64,000 bases of DNA. Origin: Streptomyces sulfonofaciens (GTDB lineage: Bacteria; Actinomycetota; Actinomycetes; Streptomycetales; Streptomycetaceae). The notes under the pieces were generated by a model, which saw nothing but the letters and a program-made list of their open reading frames with translations, did not search any database and was not told the DNA's origin. Positions 34,126 through 46,691 of the stretch are shown here, piece after piece. The translations under genes and the position numbers were made by a program. Within the stretch, counting starts at the first letter, position 1; every line of letters starts with the position of its first letter. The stretch spans positions 62,001 to 126,000 of the forward strand of contig NZ_BNCD01000012.1 of NCBI RefSeq assembly GCF_014656295.1. The letters are read 5' to 3'.

Positions 34126-35355
34126 TCACCATGTGACCGGTACGCCCTCGGGAACGCGGAAGGCCACGTCCCGCCGCCACCGCACCCGGTCGGCGGGCAC
34201 GGCGAGCCGCACCTCGGGAGCGGCCCTGCCCGCCAGCACCCCCACCACCGCCCCCAGTTGCATCCGCGCCAGACGGTTGCCGGGACAGTGGTGCTTTCCG
34301 TGGCTGAAGCCGAGGTGGGGGCCGTCGGCGCGGGACGGGACGAAGCTGTCCGGATCGGGGAAGGCGGCCGGGTCGTGGTTGGCGGATTCCAGCGAGAGAA
34401 GAACGCACTCCCCGGCCCGGACGGTCATGCCGTCGATCTCCACGTCCCTGGTCGCCACGCGTTTGGCGCCGCCGGTCGCCATGGGGGTGTGGCGCAGCAG
34501 CTCCTCCACGGCCGCCGGGACGAGGGCGGGATCCGCACGCAGCGCCGCCAGCGCCTCGGGGTGCCGCGCCAGCGTCACCAGGGCGTTGGCCAGGAAGCTG
34601 GACGAGGTGCGGTAGCCGGCGATGAAGAAGGACGTGGCGAGTTCGGCCAGGTCGTCCGGGCGCAGGCGGCCTTCGCCGTCCGCCTGGGCCAGGCGTTTGA
34701 CCAGGTGCTCGCCGGGAGCGTCGCAGAGGTGCGGCAGGCGGTCGAGGAAGAACCGGTGCACGGCGTTGATCGCGGCGGTCTGCTCCTGCCGGGTGGGGCC
34801 CCGCCAGGTGAGGATCGTGTCGCACCACGCGTCCAGCCGCTCCCGCGCGTCCACCTCGAGCGGGCCGAGCAGCACGCGGCAGGCCACCGCGAAGGGCAGG
34901 CGTACGGCGAGTGCGGGGTAGAGGTCGGCGGGCGGGCCGTGGGCGATCAGCTCCGCCATGGTGTCCTCGGCCTGTCCGCGCGTCCACTCCTCGTGCCGGC
35001 GAACGGCGCGCAGCCCGAGGGCGTCGGCCATCAGCTTGTGCAGCCCGACTTCCCGCAGTCTCGTCACGGAGTCACCGCTGCCGCCCTCGGCGCGCAGCGG
35101 GACCGGTTCCTGGCGTGGCGCGTCCGGCTCCAGAGCCGCCGCCATGCTCAGCCCGGGCTCGGCGAGGAGTCTGCGCACCACGTCGTAGCGGGTGGCGAGC
35201 CAGACACGGTCGCCGGTCACGGTGACGACCGGGTGCAGCGGTGCGCGCGCGGCACGCAGGTGTGCGTAGCGCGGCGAGAGCTCCTGTCCCCAGTCGCCGA
35301 AGGGGAAGGCGAGGGGCGGGCGGCCGGGCCGTGTCCGGTCGAACGGTTCGGTCAC
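34126..35355 (-). CDS. Cytochrome P450, tailoring enzyme of the cyclodipeptide cluster
   Basis: The protein has 409 residues. The heme-binding loop is GFSHGKHHCPGNR (Cys357); the helix-K motif ELLR is at 285-288; the I-helix reads FFIAGYRTSSS (Thr250). The length and motifs are those of bacterial class I P450s that need separate ferredoxin and reductase, none of which is adjacent. The start ATG overlaps the stop of the cyclodipeptide synthase gene (ATGA), so the two proteins are made together. By analogy with CYP121 in Mycobacterium and other CDPS-linked P450s, it probably couples, hydroxylates or cross-links a diketopiperazine. The exact reaction cannot be deduced. Confidence 0.93.
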   Translation of the reverse strand: MTEPFDRTRPGRPPLAFPFGDWGQELSPRYAHLRAARAPLHPVVTVTGDRVWLATRYDVVRRLLAEPGLSMAAALEPDAPRQEPVPLRAEGGSGDSVTRLREVGLHKLMADALGLRAVRRHEEWTRGQAEDTMAELIAHGPPADLYPALAVRLPFAVACRVLLGPLEVDARERLDAWCDTILTWRGPTRQEQTAAINAVHRFFLDRLPHLCDAPGEHLVKRLAQADGEGRLRPDDLAELATSFFIAGYRTSSSFLANALVTLARHPEALAALRADPALVPAAVEELLRHTPMATGGAKRVATRDVEIDGMTVRAGECVLLSLESANHDPAAFPDPDSFVPSRADGPHLGFSHGKHHCPGNRLARMQLGAVVGVLAGRAAPEVRLAVPADRVRWRRDVAFRVPEGVPVTW

Positions 35356-36119
35356 GGCCGCTCCTCCCCGGGCCGGGGCGCGTCCGCCGCGGGCGGCCGC
35401 TCGGCGTCCTCGCGGGGCCGGACGAGGGCGAACGCCTGGTGGGGCGAGGCGAACAGGCTCCCGAAGCCGAGCGGGACGAGGGGGAGCATGCGGTGGTAGA
35501 CGTGCACCGACGACGGCACCCCCAGAATGCCCGGTGTGTCCGTGACCAGCGGCATCTCGGCCATCAGATACCGCATGCCCTCCTCGACCTGGGCCGGCGT
35601 GGGTGCGGTCGGGTCGAAAGCGGAGGACCTGGCCCTCAGTTGTGAGGCCAGCGCGCTCTCGGTGGCCCGGCGGAAGACGCTGCGGACCGCCGCGTCACTC
35701 TCGACCGTCTCCTCGCAGCGGGCGAGGAGTTCCCGGTACCGGGGGTGGTGGACGAACTCGGACAGGGTGCGGACGTGGTGCCGCTCCGCCGGGGCGCCGC
35801 TGGCCTGCCAGGCCCGCGCGATACGGCGGCAGGTCTGGCGCGTGGCGCGCTGGGCCTGTATGTCCGCCTGTTCGGGTGTGGCGCCCAGAGCCCTGTAGGT
35901 GTGGACGAGCGCGCTGTCGGCGACGATCGCGTCCACCCGTGCGAAGACCCCGTCGGCCCAGCGCAGCAGACGGCTCAGCCGCGCCTGGCTGAAGTAGCCG
36001 TTGCCGGGGCTCACGCCGATCAGGACGTGGTCGGCCCGGGCGTAGATCGCCCGGCAGTTGGCGGTGTACGGCTCGACGGTGAACTCTGCCGGATCGCTCT
36101 CTTCTGCGGTGTGATCCAT
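35352..36119 (-). CDS. tRNA-dependent cyclodipeptide synthase (NYH subfamily)
   Basis: The protein has 255 residues from ATG 36119, with GGAGAG at good spacing. It uses two aminoacyl-tRNAs to form a 2,5-diketopiperazine through an acyl-enzyme on a serine. The hallmark LIGVSPGNGYFS places the nucleophile at Ser37 and Asn40, exactly the AlbC numbering. Tyr184 and Glu188 in RYLMAEMP match AlbC Tyr178/Glu182, and VYHRM provides the Tyr-His pair (208-209, AlbC 202-203). Asn40/Tyr/His define the NYH subfamily, whose members often incorporate Phe, Leu, Tyr or Trp. The product is unknown. It forms a two-gene operon with the P450. Confidence 0.93.
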   Translation of the reverse strand: MDHTAEESDPAEFTVEPYTANCRAIYARADHVLIGVSPGNGYFSQARLSRLLRWADGVFARVDAIVADSALVHTYRALGATPEQADIQAQRATRQTCRRIARAWQASGAPAERHHVRTLSEFVHHPRYRELLARCEETVESDAAVRSVFRRATESALASQLRARSSAFDPTAPTPAQVEEGMRYLMAEMPLVTDTPGILGVPSSVHVYHRMLPLVPLGFGSLFASPHQAFALVRPREDAERPPAADAPRPGEERP

Positions 36120-36609
36120 GTCTCTCCTGCGCATCGATGCGGAGAACCCGGCCCGTGGCGCGCACCGGCGGCCGAGTCCGCGGACGGCTCTCACACCACG
36201 TAAGGGCTCGAACGCACAGCGTTGCAACGCGCTTGCGGTGGCCCGCGGAAGCGCGCTCCTCCGCCGGGAGCATCCGGCTCACCCCTCGGCTGCCACAGCA
36301 AGCGCCCGGAGCACACGGGCATCACCTCGTGCGGGCCGCGGCACCGCCCCGGCCTCGTCGCGGACCCTTCGAACGCCGCCGCCGGCGCCGGCACCTGCTC
36401 CCCGGGAGTCCGCAGCATGTCCGAAACGCTTAAGCGGCGCTGCCCCGCACCCGGGCGGAACGCTCCACTCCCGTCACTCGCGCCCCGGCCCCCTCGACCA
36501 GGATCGATCCGCCCCGACGGGGTGCCGAGCCGGCGGACCGGGGGCCCTGCGACCGCTCCGCAAGGCGGATCGACCGCTCTTGACGGCCTCTTGACTGACC
36601 GGGACCGTC
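36120..36609. other. Intergenic region between the CDPS cluster and the riboswitch
   Basis: No gene was found in these 490 bases. They separate the divergent cyclodipeptide operon (minus) from the riboswitch-controlled transporter (plus) and must hold the CDPS promoter. I could not find a convincing -35/-10 pair for it. Confidence 0.4.
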
Positions 36610-36638
36610 TTGCGGCTGCAACCGGACGTGCATAGCCT
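36610..36638 (+). promoter_or_regulatory. Putative vegetative promoter of the riboswitch transcript
   Basis: TTGCGG (36610-36615) and TAGCCT (36633-36638) are separated by 17 bp, matching the TTGnnn / TAnnnT pattern of the main actinomycete sigma factor. Transcription would start near 36645, directly at the 5' edge of the cobalamin riboswitch. Confidence 0.45.
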
Positions 36639-36639
36639 G

Positions 36640-36850
36640 ACGAGGCCGTGGTGTTCGGGAAGACCGGTGGCGGCTCCGTGCAGCGGAGCCGAGTCCGGGG
36701 CGGCCCTCGCCACTGTGATCGGGTCCCGCGCCACGCCATGGCGATGGGAGACCGCGTTCCATTACGGCCACTGGCCGGCCCGCAGTACGGGCGGCCGGGA
36801 AGGCGGAGCGCCGGTGCACCCGTAAGCCAGGAGACCGGCCACGGCATCTC
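36640..36850 (+). promoter_or_regulatory. Cobalamin (B12) riboswitch
   Basis: The conserved B12 box AAGCCAGGAGACCGGCC lies at 36824-36840, preceded by GGTGCACCCGTAAG. The 5' part has GGTGTTCGGGAAGACCGGTG (near 36650-36670). The middle has the GCGGCCCTCGCCACTGTGA element (near 36698-36717), and GGGAAGGCGG follows at about 36797. The order and spacing match the class-I cobalamin aptamer. The element ends about 35 bp before the GTG start of the transporter, so when B12 binds it most likely hides the ribosome site or stops transcription. The gene is therefore expected to be on when cobalamin is scarce. Confidence 0.88.
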
Positions 36851-36883
36851 AGGAAACGTCCACGAGGTGCTGGAGTTCAGTCG

Positions 36884-38011
36884 GTGACACACCCTTCCTC
36901 TGCTCGAACAACCCTTTCGCCCGCGACCGGCGGGCCCGCCCCCCTGCTCCGCTGGCGGCGCGAGGACACCGTGCGCACGGTCGTACTGCTCGCCGCGGTC
37001 GCCGGGCTGCACGTCGTCGCGTTCGGGGTGCTGCTTCTGCTGGTGGTGCCGGGGCACTACGAGATCGGGTCGAAGACATTCGGTTTCGGGCTCGGCATCA
37101 CCGCCTACACCCTCGGCATGCGGCACGCCTTCGACGCCGACCACATAGCCGCCATCGACAACACCACCCGCAAGCTCATGGCCGACGGCAAGCGGCCGCT
37201 GTCCGTGGGCTTCTGGTTCGCCCTCGGGCACTCCAGCGTGGTGGTCGTCCTGTCGGCCCTCGTCGGCGGCGGTGCCGCACTCGCCGGAACACTGCTCGAC
37301 GACGACTCGGCGACCCACCAGACGCTCGGCGTCGTCGGTACCACCGTCTCCGGCTCCTTCCTCTACCTCATCGCCGCGTTCAACCTGGTGGCGCTCGCCG
37401 GGATCTGGCGGGTCTACCGCTCGATGCGCTCGGGCGACATCGACGAGGAGCGGCTCGAACGGCACCTCGACGAGCGCGGGTTCATGAACCGCATCCTCGG
37501 CCGCTTCACCCGGTCCGTGTCCCGGCCCGGCCAGATGTACCCGCTCGGCTTCCTCTTCGGCCTCGGCTTCGACACGGCCACGGAGGTCACGCTCCTGGTA
37601 CTGGCCGGAGGCGGCGCCGCAGCGGGCATCCCGTGGTACGCGATCATCGTTCTGCCGCTGCTCTTCGCGGCGGGCATGAGCCTGTTCGACACCCTCGACG
37701 GCACGTTCATGAACGTCGCCTACCAGTGGGCCTTCTCCAACCCGGTCCGCAAGGTGTACTACAACCTCACCATCACGGGGCTGTCCATCGCCGTCGCGTT
37801 CGTCATCGGCACCATCGAACTGGTCGGCGTGCTTCACGAGAAGCTGCACCTCGACGACGCCGCCACGAGCTGGATCGCGGACATCGACCTGGACAATGTC
37901 GGCTATGTCATCGCGGGCCTCTTCGTCGTGGTGTGGGCCCTGGCCCTGGGCTACTGGAAGGTGGCAGGCGTGGAGAAGCGCTGGGCGGCACGGGTGGCCG
38001 AGCGAAGCTGA
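36884..38011 (+). CDS. NiCoT-family cobalt/nickel permease under cobalamin control
   Basis: The protein has 375 residues from a GTG at 36884. About eight membrane helices are predicted. The family signature HAFDADHIAAIDN (HX4DH) in helix II binds the metal, and FALGHSSVVV, GLGFDTATEV and FDTLDGTFMNVAYQWAF are the other conserved NiCoT (HoxN/NixA) motifs. The upstream cobalamin riboswitch argues that it imports cobalt for B12 synthesis rather than nickel for urease or hydrogenase. It is monocistronic and ends at a strong hairpin. Confidence 0.95.
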   Translation: MTHPSSARTTLSPATGGPAPLLRWRREDTVRTVVLLAAVAGLHVVAFGVLLLLVVPGHYEIGSKTFGFGLGITAYTLGMRHAFDADHIAAIDNTTRKLMADGKRPLSVGFWFALGHSSVVVVLSALVGGGAALAGTLLDDDSATHQTLGVVGTTVSGSFLYLIAAFNLVALAGIWRVYRSMRSGDIDEERLERHLDERGFMNRILGRFTRSVSRPGQMYPLGFLFGLGFDTATEVTLLVLAGGGAAAGIPWYAIIVLPLLFAAGMSLFDTLDGTFMNVAYQWAFSNPVRKVYYNLTITGLSIAVAFVIGTIELVGVLHEKLHLDDAATSWIADIDLDNVGYVIAGLFVVVWALALGYWKVAGVEKRWAARVAERS

Positions 38012-38024
38012 GCCCGTCCGCCCT

Positions 38025-38057
38025 CCCGGCCCGTCCGGCACCCGCGGACGGGCCGGG
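38025..38057 (+). terminator. Intrinsic terminator after the cobalt permease
   Basis: CCCGGCCCGTCCG (38025-38037) pairs perfectly with CGGACGGGCCGGG (38045-38057) across a 7-nt loop, 14 bp past the stop. Confidence 0.8.
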
Positions 38058-38191
38058 GGCCGGGGCCAGGGCTGCCACCGCGCCGGCGGGCCCCGGCGCC
38101 CCGCTCGCACCGGGTCATCGCCCGCTGACGCACGTCCTCAGCAGGCTCTAGGCTGTCAGCCGCCACCGGCCTCACCCCAGGAGGGCACGCG

Positions 38192-38740
38192 ATGTTGGAT
38201 CCCGTCCGGAAGCACCCCTACCCCGACGCCCTCCGCCCGGAGGAGGCACCTGCACCGCACGCACTGCTCGCGCCGGTGATCGGGTTCCTGGGCACCTGGG
38301 TCGGCCGGGGCCGCGGCGAGTACCCGACGCTCGACGAGGGTTTCACCTACGCGCAGGAGGTCACCTTCCGTCATGACGGACGCCCCTTCCTGCAGTACGA
38401 GGCGCGTGCCTGGCTGCTCGACGAGGACGGCACCCCGCTGCGGCCGTCGGCCCGCGAGAGCGGCTGGTGGCGGTTGCAGCCCGACGGGCGCCTTGAGGCG
38501 TTGATCACCCAGCCCACCGGTATCGCGGAGATCTCCACCGGCCGCGCGGGCGGCAATGCGGTCGACCTCACCACCGATCAGGTCGCCCTCGCTCCCACCG
38601 CCAAGGAGGTCAACGCCACCCGCCGCCGTTACACCCTGACGGACGGGGACATGCTCGACTTCGTCCACGACCTCGCCGCGGTCGGCCAGCCTCTGCAGCA
38701 CCACCTGTCGGCACGTCTCCACCGCGGGGGCGCAAGCTAG
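38192..38740 (+). CDS. FABP-family heme-binding protein (nitrobindin, peroxynitrite isomerase)
   Basis: The protein has 182 residues with AGGAGG upstream of ATG 38192. The nitrobindin motif [14 protein letters not shown] opens the beta barrel, and [10 protein letters not shown] at the C-terminus carries the His that binds heme iron. Members bind ferric heme and isomerise peroxynitrite to nitrate. It has its own promoter space and lies convergent to the flavin reductase gene, with a bidirectional terminator between. No link to the isonitrile cluster is suggested by orientation. Confidence 0.88.
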
Positions 38741-40327: not shown

Positions 40328-41326
40328 TCACGGGACGAGGAGCAGCTTGCCGGTGGTGCGGCGGGCGGCGAGGTCGGCGTGCGCGTCGCGGGCACGGGCG
40401 AGCGGGTACGTGCCGCCGACGGTGATGCGCAGGGTGCCGTCGGCGATCCCGGCGAAGACCTCACCGGCGCGCCAGGTGAACTCCTCGACGGTGGCCCGGA
40501 AGTGCTCGAGGTAGGGGCGGGTGACGGTCAGCGATCCGCCCCACAGCAGCCGCATCACGTCGACGGGCGGCACGGGGCCGCTGGCGCCGCCGAAGAGGAC
40601 CAGCGTGCCCCGGCGGCGCAGGCTGTCCAGACTGGCGTCGAAGGTGGCGGCGCCGACACCGTCGTACGCCGCGTGCACGCCCTCGTCGCCGGTCAGCCGC
40701 CGGACCTCGGCCGCGACGTCCGGGCGGCGGTCGTAGCGGATGACCTCGTCCACGCCGTTGGCCGTCGCCAGGCTTTCCTTCTCGTCGGTGGAGACCGTGC
40801 CGATCACACGCACTCCGCGTCGCTTGAGCAACTGGGTGAGGAGCAGCCCCACGCCGCCCGCGGCGGCGTGCACCAGCACCGTCTCGCCCTCCCGGGCCCG
40901 GTAGGAGTCGTTGACCAGGTAGTGGGCCGTCATGCCCTGGACGAGTGCGGCGGCGGCGGTGTGCAGGTCGATGCCGTCGGGGACGACGACGGCCTTCTCC
41001 TCGGGGACGAGGACCTGTCCCGCGTAGCTGCCGGGGACCGTGGTCCAGGCGACCCGGTCGCCCACCGCGAACCGGGTGATGCCGGGACCGACGGCCAGCA
41101 CCGTGCCGGAGCCCTCCTCCCCGGGCACGGCGGGCAGGGACAGCGGATAGCGGCCCTCGCGGCGGTAGATGTCGATGAAGTTGACCCCCGCGGCGGCGAG
41201 CGCCACCAGGATCCGGCCTTCCCCGGGCTCGCCGGGGGCGGGCCTGTCGACGGGCAGCAGGACGTCGGGTCCGCCGGTCTCCCGGATCTCTATCGCGGGG
41301 ACGAGGGCGGCGGTCTGCGTGGTCAT
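40328..41326 (-). CDS. MDR-family quinone-oxidoreductase-like enzyme of the isonitrile cluster
   Basis: The protein has 332 residues from ATG 41326 (AAGGAG upstream), overlapping the stop of the amidotransferase gene (TGATG). Features of zinc-free quinone oxidoreductases are seen: PAVPGEEGSGTVLAVG, GSYAGQVLVPEEKAVVVPDG, GMTAHYLVNDSY and the Rossmann motif VLVHAAAGGVGLLLTQLLKR. It reduces quinones or activated double bonds with NADPH. In context it may reduce an ortho-quinone formed from the catechol or a double bond in the ring-opened product. Which of these is right cannot be decided from sequence. Confidence 0.9.
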   Translation of the reverse strand: MTTQTAALVPAIEIRETGGPDVLLPVDRPAPGEPGEGRILVALAAAGVNFIDIYRREGRYPLSLPAVPGEEGSGTVLAVGPGITRFAVGDRVAWTTVPGSYAGQVLVPEEKAVVVPDGIDLHTAAAALVQGMTAHYLVNDSYRAREGETVLVHAAAGGVGLLLTQLLKRRGVRVIGTVSTDEKESLATANGVDEVIRYDRRPDVAAEVRRLTGDEGVHAAYDGVGAATFDASLDSLRRRGTLVLFGGASGPVPPVDVMRLLWGGSLTVTRPYLEHFRATVEEFTWRAGEVFAGIADGTLRITVGGTYPLARARDAHADLAARRTTGKLLLVP

Positions 41327-43215
41327 CAGTTCACTCCTTGCAGGCTGAGGCGGTCGGTGTCCAGGTCGAGATCCACCCGGTAGGCGCGGAGCCACGCGCC
41401 GAGGCGGACGGTGGACTCCAGGAGGATGCGCTGGAACTCGGAGAGGCTGTCGGACGTCGTCCGGTCGGTGAGCCGGCGCACCGCGACCGGGTCCAGGTAG
41501 TCGGCGAGCGGGGTGTCGTCGCCGAGGGCCTCGGCGGTGAGGTCCCCGATGAGGGCGCGGTCGTAGGCGGGGTCCTGGATGGAGGGGTAGGCCGCCTTGG
41601 TGCGGCGCAGCACGGACTGCGGCAGCAGATCGGCGACGGCCTCGCGGAGCAGGCCCTTTTCCTGGCCGGTGACGGTCTTCATGCCCCAGGGGACGTTGAA
41701 GAGGTACTCGACGAGACGGTGGTCGCAGAACGGAACCCGCCCTTCCAGGCCGTTCGCCATGCCCATCCGGTCCTTCTTGTCGAGCAGGATGGGCAGCCAC
41801 CGGGTGAGCGTGAGATAGCCGAGTTCACGGGTGCGCCGCTCCTCGGGGCCCTCGCCGTCGAGACGGGGCACCTCGGCCAGCGCGCTCCGGTAGAGGTCGG
41901 CCTGGTACGTGGCGAGGTCGATTCCCTCCACGAACCCGGGACGGAACAGCGCCCGGGGATCGAGGCCGCGGTGGGCGCCGAGCTTCAGCCAGGGAAAGGT
42001 CTCCGCGGCCCGTGCCCCGGGGTCGGAGAACCAGAGGTAGCCGCCGAAGACCTCGTCGGCGCCCTCGCCCGAGAGCGCCACGGGGGCGTGCTCGCGGACG
42101 GCGCCGAAGAGCTGGTGCAGCGAGACGTCCAGGTCGGCGAAGTTGAACGGCAGGTCCCAGGCCGCCAGCACGGTCCTGCGCACGGCCGGGTCGAGCAGCC
42201 GGGAGCGGTCCAGGGTGATCGTGCGGTGGTCGCTGCCGACGTGCTCGGCGACCGCGCGGGCGTAGGGGCCGTCCGGGGTGGGGCGGATGGCATCGCCCCG
42301 GAAGTTCTCGCTGTGGCCGGTGAAGTCGACGGCGAAGGTGGAGATCCGCCCGCCCCCGGCGGCACGGGTACGCTGCGCCAGGGCGGTCACCGTACTGGAG
42401 TCCAGACCACCGGAGAGCAGTGAGACCAGGGGGACGTCCGCGATCATCTGCCGGGGCACGATGTCGTCCAGCAGCTCCCGGACGGTGGCGGTGGTGGTGG
42501 GCAGGTCGTCGGTGTGCGGGCGGGCCTCCAGGGCCCAGTACCGCTCCTCGCGCAGGCCGCCGCGGCCCACCGTCAGCAGATGGCCGGGTTTGAGTTCGCG
42601 CATGCCGCGGAACGGCACGCGGCCGGGGGTGCGCAGGAAGAGCAGTGCGTCGCACAGCTCCTCGGCGCCGGCACTCGGCGTGACCAGGGGGTTCGCCAGG
42701 ATGGCCTTGGGTTCCGAGCCGAAGAGCACACCCTGCGGGGTCGGGTGGTAGTAGAGGGGTTTGACGCCGATGCGGTCGCGGACGAGGAGCAGTTCCTCGC
42801 GGGCGGTGTCCCAGATCGCGATGGAGTACATGCCGTTGAGACGGTGCACGAAGTCGGCACCCCACTGGAGGTAGGCGCGCAGCGCCACCTCGGTGTCGCC
42901 GGCCGTGCTGAACCGGTGTCCGTACAGGGCGAGTTCGCCGCGCAGTTCCCGGTAGTTGTAGATCTCGCCGCCGTAGGAGATCACGGCCCGCGGCAGGTCG
43001 CCGCGCGGGCCGCGCTCCGGGCTGGCCATGGGCTGGGCGCCGTGCTCCAGGTCGATGATCGCCAGCCGCCGGTGGCCGAGCGCCGCATGGGTGTCCAGCC
43101 AGCCGCCGCCGGCGTCGGGGCCGCGGCGGATCAGGGTCCGCACCATGGCGTCGAGCGTGCCGGCCTCGGCGCTCAGGTCGCGGGAGAAGTCGACCCAGCC
43201 GGTGATGCCGCACAT
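41326..43215 (-). CDS. Asparagine synthetase-like glutamine-dependent amidotransferase
   Basis: The protein has 629 residues from ATG 43215 with AAAGGAGC upstream. The N-terminus is MCGITGW, so Cys2, the glutaminase nucleophile, is intact. The ATP-pyrophosphatase loop SGGLDSST and the GEGADEVFGGY motif mark a functional AsnB-type synthetase domain. It transfers ammonia from glutamine to an adenylated carboxylate. Housekeeping AsnB proteins are similar in length, so sequence alone does not prove a special substrate. The location inside a biosynthetic operon suggests amidation of a pathway carboxylic acid, for example one freed by ring cleavage. Confidence 0.92.
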   Translation of the reverse strand: MCGITGWVDFSRDLSAEAGTLDAMVRTLIRRGPDAGGGWLDTHAALGHRRLAIIDLEHGAQPMASPERGPRGDLPRAVISYGGEIYNYRELRGELALYGHRFSTAGDTEVALRAYLQWGADFVHRLNGMYSIAIWDTAREELLLVRDRIGVKPLYYHPTPQGVLFGSEPKAILANPLVTPSAGAEELCDALLFLRTPGRVPFRGMRELKPGHLLTVGRGGLREERYWALEARPHTDDLPTTTATVRELLDDIVPRQMIADVPLVSLLSGGLDSSTVTALAQRTRAAGGGRISTFAVDFTGHSENFRGDAIRPTPDGPYARAVAEHVGSDHRTITLDRSRLLDPAVRRTVLAAWDLPFNFADLDVSLHQLFGAVREHAPVALSGEGADEVFGGYLWFSDPGARAAETFPWLKLGAHRGLDPRALFRPGFVEGIDLATYQADLYRSALAEVPRLDGEGPEERRTRELGYLTLTRWLPILLDKKDRMGMANGLEGRVPFCDHRLVEYLFNVPWGMKTVTGQEKGLLREAVADLLPQSVLRRTKAAYPSIQDPAYDRALIGDLTAEALGDDTPLADYLDPVAVRRLTDRTTSDSLSEFQRILLESTVRLGAWLRAYRVDLDLDTDRLSLQGVN

Positions 43216-43247
43216 GGTCCGCTCCTTTCTCGTTCGTGGTCGGTGTC

Positions 43248-44834
43248 TCAGTCCTGTTCCGGCGCGAGCCAGGGGCCCCGCCGCCAGCCGTCGGTGTCGT
43301 AGTCGTCCAGGCACTCCTGGACCAGCGCCTCGTAGCGGTCGAGGCTGCCGCGGCCGGTGGCCCAGCGCAGGGCGTCCAGCCGGACCTGCTCGCCGTTGCC
43401 GGAGTAGTTGCGCTCGTACAGCTCGTGGCGCGCCCCGAACTCGGTGCCGATGGCATCCCAGACCAGCTTGAAGAGCTTGATCCGCTCCAGTGCGGACGAG
43501 TCGGAGCCCCGGTAGTAGCGGTCGATGAGCGGACGCAGTTCGGGGTCGGCGAGGTCGCGGACGCTGGAGGGGACGACCAGCGGCGAGCCCCCGAGCAGGG
43601 TCTCGAAGAGCTCGTGCACCCGGCTCCAGACATGGGCGTTGGCCATGCGCATCGACGAGGCGTGCTCCAGACGCGGCAGGACGGTGCCGCCGGGGCCGGG
43701 TTCGGTGTCGTGGGCCATGGCGGAGGTGAGCGCCCACACCAGGTCCCGCAGGGTGACGAGTTCGCCGAGACCCGCCTGGACACCGCGGAACACGTCGGTG
43801 CCGTTCGCCCTGGCGGCCCGGGAGAGGAGCCCGGCCATCAGCTCCAGCTTGACGCCCAGCCGGATCCCCGACTGGAAGTTGTAGAGCTGGGGGAAGCCGG
43901 ACCTGGCGTAGAAGCCGGTGGCCCGCTCGATGTCGCGGTGGACGAGCACGTCCTCCCAGGGAATCAGGGCCTCGTCCAGCAGCAGCACGCTGTCGTTCTC
44001 GTCGAACCGGCTGCTGAGGGGATGGTCGAAGGGGCTTCCGGCGCGCCGCTCGTACGGGGTGCGGCAGACGAGCCGCACGCCGGGGTTGTCCATCCGGACG
44101 AAGAAGACGAGGGCGAAACGCTCCGCCTTGCCCTTCTCCAGCCGGGCCGAGCCGACCGGCGCGACGAAACCGGCGTTGGTCAGCGCTGAGCCGGTGGCCA
44201 GCATCTTCGCCCCGCTGACCACCACCCCGGCGTCCGTCTCCCGCACCGCGTGCACGAAGACGTCCTCCATGTCGTGGACGGCGCGCTTGCGGTCGATCGG
44301 CGGGTTGATGATGACGTGGTTGAGGTGCAGCGCCTTGCTCGCGAACCTCCGGTACCAGGCGCCGGCGTTGGCGGCGAACGGGCCGTAGTAGTCCGCGCCG
44401 ACGCCGAGCCCTGCCATGAAGGCGGCCTTGTACTCGGGGGTGCGGCCCAGGAAGCCGTAGCTCATCCGCGCCCAGGTGGCGATCGCCTCCCTGGCCTGGA
44501 CGAGTTCGGCTGCGGAACGGCTCGGCTTGAAGAAGCGGTGGGTGCGGATGCCGAGGTCCGGGTCCACGCCGGTGAGCACGTCGGCGGTAGCGGGGTCGTG
44601 CAGGGCGTCGTAGAGCCGGGCGATGGAGCGGGCCGCGTTGCGGAACGCCGGGTGCCTGGTCACGTCCTCGACCCGTTCACCGTCCACGTGGACCGAGCGG
44701 CCGTCGCGCAGGCTCTCCAGGTACTCCTCGCCGGTCATCAGGGAGTTGGTCCCGGTCGCCGGGGCGCCCGGTCCGGCCGTCAGGGCGCCGCATCCGGCCG
44801 TCAGGGCGCCGGTGTCCGTCCGCGGGCGCGTCAT
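43248..44834 (-). CDS. 4-hydroxyphenylacetate 3-hydroxylase (HpaB) family flavin monooxygenase
   Basis: The protein has 528 residues. The start at 44834 overlaps the preceding stop (ATGA). The first 32 residues include a short repeat, GALTAGCGALTAGPGA, before the normal family start MTGEEYLESLRDGR. Core HpaB motifs follow: RMSYGFLGRTPEYKAAFMAG, NPPIDRKRAVHD, VSGAKMLATGSALTN, and NYSGNGEQVRLD near the C-terminus. These enzymes use free FADH2 and O2 to add a hydroxyl ortho to a phenol. In this setting the substrate is expected to be a tyrosine-derived isonitrile, giving a catechol. The matching reductase is at the operon end. Confidence 0.93.
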   Translation of the reverse strand: MTRPRTDTGALTAGCGALTAGPGAPATGTNSLMTGEEYLESLRDGRSVHVDGERVEDVTRHPAFRNAARSIARLYDALHDPATADVLTGVDPDLGIRTHRFFKPSRSAAELVQAREAIATWARMSYGFLGRTPEYKAAFMAGLGVGADYYGPFAANAGAWYRRFASKALHLNHVIINPPIDRKRAVHDMEDVFVHAVRETDAGVVVSGAKMLATGSALTNAGFVAPVGSARLEKGKAERFALVFFVRMDNPGVRLVCRTPYERRAGSPFDHPLSSRFDENDSVLLLDEALIPWEDVLVHRDIERATGFYARSGFPQLYNFQSGIRLGVKLELMAGLLSRAARANGTDVFRGVQAGLGELVTLRDLVWALTSAMAHDTEPGPGGTVLPRLEHASSMRMANAHVWSRVHELFETLLGGSPLVVPSSVRDLADPELRPLIDRYYRGSDSSALERIKLFKLVWDAIGTEFGARHELYERNYSGNGEQVRLDALRWATGRGSLDRYEALVQECLDDYDTDGWRRGPWLAPEQD

Positions 44835-45694
44835 CGGACCAGCCCCGGGTTGGCCAGCGGCGGGTTGCCGAGGACCTGCACACGGCGCAGGTGCCGCGGT
44901 GCACCGCTGGTGAACGCGTTGCGGCCGTGCAGCAGCGTGTAGTTGTCGGCCACCACCAGGTCACCGGTCCGCCAGACGTGTGCGTAGAGATGGGCGGGGT
45001 CGTAGAGGGCGGAGCGCAGGCTGCGGTGCAGTTCGGCCAGTTCCGCCTCGTCGGCGAGACCGGAGAACTCCAGGTCGGGATGGTTGACGAAGTCCTCGCC
45101 GGCCTCGGCGGTGGGCTCGTGGTAGCGGATCACCGGCGTGCCGTTGACCGGGTGGGCCGTCACCACGGGGGAGACGGTCGTGCTGTTGTAGTACTCCATT
45201 TCCCGGTGGTACGTGCCGGTGGCACGGGACCACAGGCGGCGCGTGGCCGGATCGGCGTCGGCGAGCACCGCCGGGGTGTCGCAGAACGTGGTCTCGCCCG
45301 CGTGGTCCGCGCCGGGCGCGTGCACGCACTGGAAGATCTGGAACTCGGGTATGTGCTCCCGGTACATGCCGTCCCAGTGCATCGGCATATGGCTGTGGTC
45401 GAAGATGTGGTCGGCCGGGTCCTCCTGCTGGACGAGTTCCAGCACGGTGCCGAACGGCCACCTGGCGGGCTCCCCCCAGCGCTCGGCGTAGGCGGAGAGT
45501 CCGGCCGGCTCGGCGAACGCCGCGAAGCCGCGCAGCAGCAGCAGACGGTGTTCGCGTACCAGGTCGCGCAGCGGCGGGACGGGGAGCTCGGCCAGTGGAC
45601 GGCCGGGGTCGGGAGCGTGGACGGCCACCCCGAAGGGTTCGAGGGCGGTGACCGCCAGACGCGGATCGCCGAGCAGGTCGTGGTCAACGGGCAT
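44831..45694 (-). CDS. isnB: TauD/TfdA-family Fe(II)/2-oxoglutarate oxygenase (PvcB/IsnB-like)
   Basis: The protein has 287 residues. The facial triad is present: His106 and Asp108 in MHWDGMY, and His256 in LLHGRNAF, with an Arg cluster (RHLRR) for 2-oxoglutarate. The length and the neighbour (an isonitrile synthase whose 3' end overlaps by 11 bp) match PvcB/IsnB, which acts on the isonitrile amino acid. In that family the usual outcome is oxidative decarboxylation to a vinyl isonitrile, though other outcomes exist. The substrate is inferred from the neighbour, not proven. Confidence 0.88.
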   Translation of the reverse strand: MPVDHDLLGDPRLAVTALEPFGVAVHAPDPGRPLAELPVPPLRDLVREHRLLLLRGFAAFAEPAGLSAYAERWGEPARWPFGTVLELVQQEDPADHIFDHSHMPMHWDGMYREHIPEFQIFQCVHAPGADHAGETTFCDTPAVLADADPATRRLWSRATGTYHREMEYYNSTTVSPVVTAHPVNGTPVIRYHEPTAEAGEDFVNHPDLEFSGLADEAELAELHRSLRSALYDPAHLYAHVWRTGDLVVADNYTLLHGRNAFTSGAPRHLRRVQVLGNPPLANPGLVR

Positions 45695-46691
45695 GGCGGA
45701 GGACTCCAGTCGCCGGGGCGGGTACGGGGGCGGCGGTGCGGGGCCGAGCGAGCACTAAGTGGCTGGGGCGGCCGCGGACCGTCACCAGCCGGGCTCCCGC
45801 GGCCTCGGCCTCGGCTCGTTTCATCAGCGTGAAGCGTCCGTCGCCGGTGTCGACGGCGGCGCTGTGCCAGGGCGTGAGCCAGACGTCGGGAGTGTCGGCG
45901 AGCAGCAGTCCGATCTTCCGCGTGCTGCACGGCTGCGGGTGGATCGAGAGGCGGACGGCGTCCGGGAACAGCTCGGCCAGCAGCTCGTCCCAGGCGCGGC
46001 TGCGGGCGATGACGCCGTAGGCCAGCTCGCGGCTTCGGCGCTGCAGGGCCGAGCGGCTGCCGGTGTGTCCGGGGACGGACAGGTCCTCCAGCATGAACCG
46101 GGTGATGCCCCGGTACATGTGGACCAGGTCGCCGCCCCGGCGCACCTCGGCCCGCAGCGCGTCCGTGTGCGGCCCGCGGCCGGCCGTGAGCTCGGCGCGC
46201 ATCCGCGCGTGGTCGGCGCCCGGATAGACGTCGTCCAGGGTGAACTGGGACAGGTGGACGGCGCCGATCCGGGCGATCATGCGGTTCAGCTCGTGGACGT
46301 AGCGGGTGACGTTGTCGTCGCCCACCCCGATCAGGTCGTTGAAGACCCGTCCGTCGGAGCATACGCGGATGCGGGCACCGGGCGGGTAGACCTCCGCGAT
46401 GCGCTCGCAGAGCGACTCCAGGAACCGCAGCGCGAGTTCCTCGGCCAGGTCGGGCAGTGGCCCGAGGACCTTGGCCGGGTTGGGGGACTTGGTGGGGAAG
46501 GCCGGGAGCAGGAAGTCGATCGGCCGGCCGTGTGCCATGGCCGTCGCGACCGCGTCGCGGTGGTGTCGTACGCACCGCAGGCAGACCCGGCCGGCGCAGC
46601 CGCCGTCGCGCAGCCTGCGCTGGAGGACCAGCACCTCGCGGATCACCTCGATGGCGGCCAGTTCGGTGTCGAGCATGGCTGTTTCGTGCAC
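45684..46691 (-). CDS. isnA: Isonitrile synthase (PvcA/IsnA/DIT1 family)
   Basis: The protein has 335 residues; the start is GTG 46691 just after AGGAGG (MHETAMLDTELAAIEVI). The family core is clear: LLPAFPTKSPNPAKVLGPLP, followed by DLAEELALRFLESLCERIAE, then ARIRVCSDGRVFNDLIGVGD, then VHLSQFTLDDVYPG and MYRGITRFMLED. These are the hallmarks of the L-tyrosine/L-tryptophan isonitrile synthases that convert the amine into an isocyano group using ribulose 5-phosphate as the carbon donor. The HpaB and catechol dioxygenase partners favour tyrosine. Several Cys residues lie near the N-terminus (GGCAGRVCLRC). It leads the biosynthetic operon, 107 bp after the SARP gene. Confidence 0.93.
   Translation of the reverse strand: MHETAMLDTELAAIEVIREVLVLQRRLRDGGCAGRVCLRCVRHHRDAVATAMAHGRPIDFLLPAFPTKSPNPAKVLGPLPDLAEELALRFLESLCERIAEVYPPGARIRVCSDGRVFNDLIGVGDDNVTRYVHELNRMIARIGAVHLSQFTLDDVYPGADHARMRAELTAGRGPHTDALRAEVRRGGDLVHMYRGITRFMLEDLSVPGHTGSRSALQRRSRELAYGVIARSRAWDELLAELFPDAVRLSIHPQPCSTRKIGLLLADTPDVWLTPWHSAAVDTGDGRFTLMKRAEAEAAGARLVTVRGRPSHLVLARPRTAAPVPAPATGVLRHAR

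Follow-up and report, generated by a model that had tools for sequence, protein, structure and literature searches.

A cobalamin riboswitch stands directly before a gene for a NiCoT permease in the window (the whole 64-kb stretch of DNA analysed), and a riboswitch-controlled cobalt importer is an already known kind of system. The first-pass annotation had described a complete cobalamin aptamer with its B12 box and had proposed a covariance-model search as the check. That search, run with cmscan over the whole window, returned a single Rfam match at gathering threshold, RF00174, scoring 57.7 bits (gathering score 31.5; E 1.1e-11). The match spans model positions 1-189 of 189 without truncation, lies at the expected place and takes in the B12 box (Table 1), so the claim is upheld in full. 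The aptamer, of which cobalamin is the probable ligand, is closed by a P1 helix of seven pairs, and a gap of 26 nt separates its end from the GTG start of the permease. The encoded protein of 375 aa matches PF03824 NicO (E 5e-96), NCBIfam TIGR00802 (372.7 bits, cut-off 333.05) and the NCBIfam equivalog NF052500 'Nickel transporter NicT' (523.6 bits, cut-off 450). All four NiCoT signature motifs, in TM2, TM3, TM5 and TM6, are legible as RHAFDADHI, FALGHSSVV, LGFDTATE and GMSLFDTLD when the translation is read against the table in PMC7689651. The earlier assignment to the NiCoT family is thereby borne out by PF03824, TIGR00802 and the four motifs.

Table 1. Features of the riboswitch-NiCoT locus, in window coordinates unless another locus is named.
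Feature	Coordinates	Strand	Basis or remark
Promoter (putative): TTGCGG (36610-36615), 17 nt spacer, TAGCCT (36633-36638)	36610-36638	+	sequence reading; -10 position conserved
Cobalamin riboswitch aptamer	36632-36857	+	RF00174, whole model
P1 5' strand GCCGUGG, partner 36839-36845	36645-36651	+	99.8-100% of cells paired, 104 distinct leaders
Loop L5 core CCUCG, predicted kiss with L13 (36863-36867)	36705-36709	+	conserved, complementary to L13
B12 box AAGCCAGGAGACC	36824-36836	+	found upstream of 80/80 best relatives
P1 3' strand CCACGGC, partner 36645-36651	36839-36845	+	alignment pairing, sequence reading
Anti-sequestor 5' strand CGGCAUCUC, overlaps P1 3' strand; predicted partner 36864-36872 without ligand	36842-36850	+	MFE fold
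P13 hairpin UCCA (36859-36862), loop L13 CGAGGUGC, UGGA (36871-36874)	36859-36874	+	predicted to hide Shine-Dalgarno; 99.3% of cells paired
Shine-Dalgarno GGAG, 8 nt ahead of GTG start	36872-36875	+	sequence reading; lies inside P13
NiCoT permease (HoxN/HupN/NixA family), proposed cobalt importer	36884-38011	+	PF03824, TIGR00802, NF052500
ArsR example	L011:4323-4694	-	homologous position at 39/80 relatives

The neighbouring genes described here lie on the minus strand. Divergent from the riboswitch are a cyclodipeptide synthase gene (35352-36119, PF16715) and a P450 gene (34126-35355), which are not common to the 80 best relatives, save for P450 matches at nine loci. The segment 38866-46670 is likely an isonitrile natural-product cluster, in which Pfam matches identify a DIT1/PvcA-type isonitrile synthase (45684-46670), a TauD oxygenase, an HpaB-type hydroxylase, a LigB extradiol dioxygenase and a flavin reductase, together with an asparagine-synthase-like frame (41326-43737) recognised by reading alone.

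The riboswitch is shared by a large group of streptomycete NiCoT genes. Among the best 80 of 590 relatives found by a scan of genome contigs, a B12 box lies 31-170 nt before the matched start in all 80. A less selected sample, drawn from 199 Streptomyces genomes, comprised 98 NiCoT genes of nearly full length, with fragments and weak matches (E above about 5e-74) left out. Allowing one mismatch, a B12 box precedes 37 of the 97 genes with the exact TM2 motif and is missing from the other 60; a further gene with one TM2 residue changed (L171) also carries the box, giving 38 of 98. In the NiCoT protein tree the 37 riboswitch genes cluster, the label changing twice where shuffled labels change 29.9 times on average. 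A few long-branched genes lacking the riboswitch fall near this cluster, and the tree neither shows nor excludes a single origin of the riboswitch-NiCoTs.

A sigma-70 consensus scan of 36400-38300 returned no promoter-like site and missed the TTGCGG/TAGCCT pair, and support for the promoter was taken from positional conservation in place of the scan. Of 105 distinct upstream regions, 104 have a TAnnnT element, the conserved -10 form of S. lividans promoters (PMC8079986), 12-13 nt ahead of the P1 5' strand, compared with a mean of 4.7 and a maximum of 11 in shuffled controls. This fixed spacing places the start of the transcript near P1, probably at about 36645 on the very edge of the helix, and bears out the earlier proposal that the -35/-10 pair fits transcription starting at the aptamer edge.

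Conservation continues through the segment that follows the B12 box. The window leader is 75-88% identical to 115 other NiCoT leaders (shuffled 66%), the L5 sequence GCGGCCCUCGCCACUGU is present in 115 of 116 NiCoT leaders and in 7/7 leaders of cbiM genes, and the P13 sequence UCCACGAGGUGCUGGAG in 107 of 116 and 7/7, respectively. We aligned 104 distinct leaders, picked with a regular expression that contains L13 itself, so that the conservation of L13 in this alignment derives in part from selection; the expression cost only one leader, L077, which was left out as the 5' half of its aptamer is missing. In L077 a B12 box and P13 do precede a NiCoT gene, and the truncation may be an assembly artefact or the product of recombination. 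Across the alignment P1, L5-L13 and P13 together form standard pairs in 99.7% of cells, the five complementary L5-L13 pairs being kept in 99.8% and invariant, without covariation. The competing hairpin CGGCAUCUC/GAGGUGCUG forms standard pairs in 95.4% of cells, and slid controls reach 17-54%. No pair in P1, L5-L13, P13 or the anti-sequestor changes on both sides, and covariation therefore speaks neither for nor against these pairings. Individual pairs of the anti-sequestor are lost in some relatives, one of them in 23 of 97 cells and a second in 15 of 104. When the post-box segment is folded alone, 66 of the 77 distinct platforms pair the GAGG of L13 upstream, 11 do not favour the anti-sequestor, and one forms P13, a rarity to be expected if P13 needs the kissing loop. 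For the window leader, the minimum-energy fold stands only a little apart from shuffled sequence (z -2.0); folded by itself, the platform is unremarkable (z -0.37).

The comparison was extended to other cobalamin riboswitch families, where the leader of the strain's own cobD gene has L5 UCCCG with a CGGGA hairpin. In L292 a CGGGA adjoins the aptamer; the other UCCCG leaders hold a 4-mer complement at most, or none, which makes a co-change of L5 with L13 across families suggestive only, in a comparison where 13 of 31 loci were unparsed and four (L290, L303, L305 and L308) gave a wrong L5. L284, L292 and L307 represent a further cobalamin riboswitch family of Streptomyces, whose members have UCCCG as L5, carry UCCACGAGGAUGGAGC as a short hairpin in the platform and precede a different gene.

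These elements suggest a two-state switch in which translational feedback is the most likely mode of control. From a transcript begun at about 36645, the aptamer would bind cobalamin when the cofactor is ample and P1 would be complete. In this ligand-bound state L5 (CCUCG) is predicted to kiss L13 (CGAGG) and so to stabilise P13 (UCCA/UGGA), within which the Shine-Dalgarno GGAG would be closed and the NiCoT permease not made. When cobalamin is scarce, the P1 3' strand and the bases next to it (CGGCAUCUC) would instead pair with L13 (GAGGUGCUG) and block P13, leaving the Shine-Dalgarno open for synthesis of a permease that would import Co2+ for corrin synthesis. The predicted switch agrees with the scheme set out in PMC10653944, where an L5-L13 contact stabilises P13 and closes the ribosome binding site. 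Other cobalamin riboswitches act by termination, for example that of P. megaterium metE (PMC10653944), and the leader might likewise be controlled by intrinsic or Rho-dependent transcription termination rather than at the Shine-Dalgarno; we consider this unlikely, as no terminator-like site was found in 36400-38300 and the conserved P13 includes the Shine-Dalgarno. Less probable still is a decayed or constitutive riboswitch in this strain, at a locus that moved beside unrelated biosynthesis genes and kept its leader by inertia. The cyclodipeptide synthase, a THAP4-like gene, flavin reductase, LigB, HpaB and manA indeed occur at none of the loci of the best 80 of 590 relatives, and the window lacks an ArsR gene and operator that many relatives have. 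Against decay, however, the aptamer is full length, L5, L13, P13, P1 and the -10 element are all intact, and the leader retains the identity to its 115 counterparts given above.

The substrates of NiCoT permeases are not predictable from sequence identity, and genome context is the best guide to them (PMC7689651). RHAFDADHI is common to each of the 97 NiCoTs that have the TM2 motif, whether a riboswitch precedes the gene or not, so TM2 does not mark cobalt transport. The genome of the strain holds two other RF00174 riboswitches, before cobD-cobQ and before cobN (genes named by reading their translations), and a Pfam search of it found neither CbiM nor CbtA. Streptomyces has two classes of CbiM. 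The same riboswitch as that of the NiCoT genes precedes class-2 cbiM in 7/7 loci examined, and a B12 box precedes class-1 cbiM in 0/7. Class-2 leaders share L5 and P13 with the NiCoT leaders and are 78-84% identical to the window leader (shuffled 66%). Class-2 CbiM occurs in 65 of 199 genomes, riboswitch-NiCoT in 38 and both in none (Fisher p 4.7e-8). For NiCoTs of the sister group, which lack the riboswitch, no such exclusion with class-2 cbiM is seen (10 of 47 genomes, p 0.07). As 96 of the 199 genomes have neither riboswitch-type importer, the rule is one of exclusion and not of either-or. It holds only for the class-2, riboswitch-type CbiM; when CbiM of any class is counted no exclusion is seen, with 4 of the 38 genomes that have a riboswitch-NiCoT and 14 of the remaining 161 lacking it.

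A single old split does not explain this exclusion. In an rpoB tree of 80 genomes the labels are interleaved and the NiCoT label undergoes at least 10 changes on the starred branches. The tips were chosen by label (31 of 38 NiCoT, 40 of 65 cbiM and 9 of 96 with neither), and the tree serves solely to argue against a single old split; G085, G102, G136, G179, G188 and G190 are absent from the list and G079 was classed later. An independent-pairs sign test on the same tree (median p 0.008) was set aside, as label-chosen tips favour it.

Nur boxes are nickel-regulation sites, which a nickel importer of Streptomyces would be expected to have. They lie upstream of 32 of the 60 riboswitch-less NiCoTs, where 0.6 would be expected, and these paralogues are probably nickel importers. 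The strain's own second NiCoT (G000:C2:605397-606296; L005, L182) lacks a riboswitch and has a perfect Nur-box match upstream, and is probably the nickel importer of the strain. Upstream of the window gene no Nur box was matched with up to two mismatches, and in the riboswitch group 3 of 37 genes have a Nur-like match, against 0.2 expected from shuffled sequence; these matches lie upstream of the aptamer, at 367-381 nt in the coordinates of the search. Taken together, the four context tests point to cobalt as the substrate of the riboswitch group and to nickel for many of the NiCoTs outside it. The permease might still import nickel for the most part, in line with its NCBIfam name, and the riboswitch would then serve a different balance, one of nickel and B12 enzymes. 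The NF052500 equivalog score, the uninformative TM2 motif and the general difficulty of telling NiCoT substrates from sequence (PMC7689651) would all allow it, but it sits poorly with both the exclusion of riboswitch-type cbiM and the distribution of Nur boxes, perfect at the second NiCoT and lacking at the window gene, and we regard it as improbable. Cobalt as the substrate is the reading we prefer, and the name 'Nickel transporter NicT' is probably misleading for this protein. The earlier claim that the riboswitch assigns the permease to cobalt import thus gains support, as an inference from genome context, in the cbiM exclusion, the Nur boxes, the absence of CbiM and CbtA, the B12 box at all of the best 80 of 590 relatives and the placement of the genome's two other cobalamin riboswitches. 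Overall, we are fairly confident that this locus imports cobalt through a single gene, kept under B12 feedback by a translational switch, and that its riboswitch serves either NiCoT or class-2 CbiM importers.

A second layer of control may exist in the relatives. A divergent gene for an ArsR/SmtB-type regulator adjoins the NiCoT gene at 39 of the best 80 of 590 relatives, two of these being weak partial matches. The protein scores 75.5 bits against NF033788 (cut-off 55), its best solved relative is NmtR (PDB 2LKP, E 2e-13), and His2, His17 and Cys20 are invariant in 48 aligned copies. Between the two genes and over the -35 box lies a candidate operator, TGTGATCtTcgATACCTGCgCAGnTgtGCAGCtaTGCAGG. 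A matrix for it, built on 40 ArsR-bearing loci and hence trained on part of the set it scored, gives at least 10 in 52 of 52 ArsR-bearing leaders, below 2 in 45 of 53 others and -60 in the window. Among the 199 genomes 23 have the ArsR gene, 22 of them at riboswitch-NiCoT loci (22 of 38) and one at G024. At this last locus (L312, G024:C58) ArsR, operator and riboswitch are intact, but a transposase-like frame interrupts the NiCoT frame a short way past its start. No close copy of the regulator was found in the window genome, where the best match has 46% identity over 79 residues. In the ArsR-type Ni/Co sensors described in PMC7055735 metal binding releases the DNA and allows efflux, and an ArsR/SmtB regulator of metal uptake would therefore be unusual. 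A wider proposal is that one riboswitch cassette, a promoter-proximal aptamer with its platform, has been re-used for two unrelated and never co-occurring cobalt importers, the NiCoT version being, or having been, doubly gated, through a divergent NmtR-like ArsR whose operator covers the -35 box and through translational control by B12, and the window strain having lost or never had the metal-sensor layer. We hold this to be evenly poised between right and wrong.

The B12 riboswitch set against the Nur box, combined with exclusion from genomes with riboswitch-controlled cbiM, offers a cheap and testable rule for telling cobalt from nickel importers in streptomycetes, and the pairing of ArsR with NiCoT provides a concrete case in which to ask whether an SmtB-type sensor can control an importer jointly with a riboswitch. 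A literature search, as far as its sources extended, found no description of a Streptomyces NiCoT riboswitch, of its exclusion with cbiM or of the adjoining ArsR gene. In S. lividans TK24, RF00174 precedes cbiM and cobD-cobQ-cobN (PMC8079986, Table 3), and the window resembles the RF00174-cbiM locus of that strain in Rfam family, genus and cobalt-transport role. It differs in its client, which is a single-gene secondary permease of the NiCoT family rather than a cbiM transport operon, and the L5/P13 likeness to cbiM leaders comes from the class-2 leaders read here, not from the S. lividans leader. As in the E. coli btuB and env8HyCbl riboswitches, where an L5-L13 kiss stabilises P13 and hides the ribosome binding site (PMC10653944), the same contact is predicted here. 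Unlike that scheme, the window L5 core is CCUCG in place of the UCCCG consensus, with L13 as its exact complement, and P13 itself holds the Shine-Dalgarno. The relatives' ArsR shares with NmtR, the Ni/Co sensor of M. tuberculosis, membership of the ArsR/SmtB family and an invariant His2 near the N-terminus; unlike NmtR, it adjoins an importer rather than an efflux ATPase and has the invariant H17 and C20, and it is absent from the window. Other NiCoTs under cobalamin riboswitches or in B12 operons have been assigned to cobalt by such context (PMC7689651, PMC2667541). Table 2 of PMC2667541, covering 40 Actinobacteria, lists two nickel, one cobalt and 11 unassigned NiCoTs; unlike that table, the present analysis assigns a large streptomycete group through its exclusion with cbiM. 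What the comparison adds is this substrate assignment, the apparent exchange of one importer for another under a common riboswitch, and a puzzling layer of metal sensing, which the window strain lacks.
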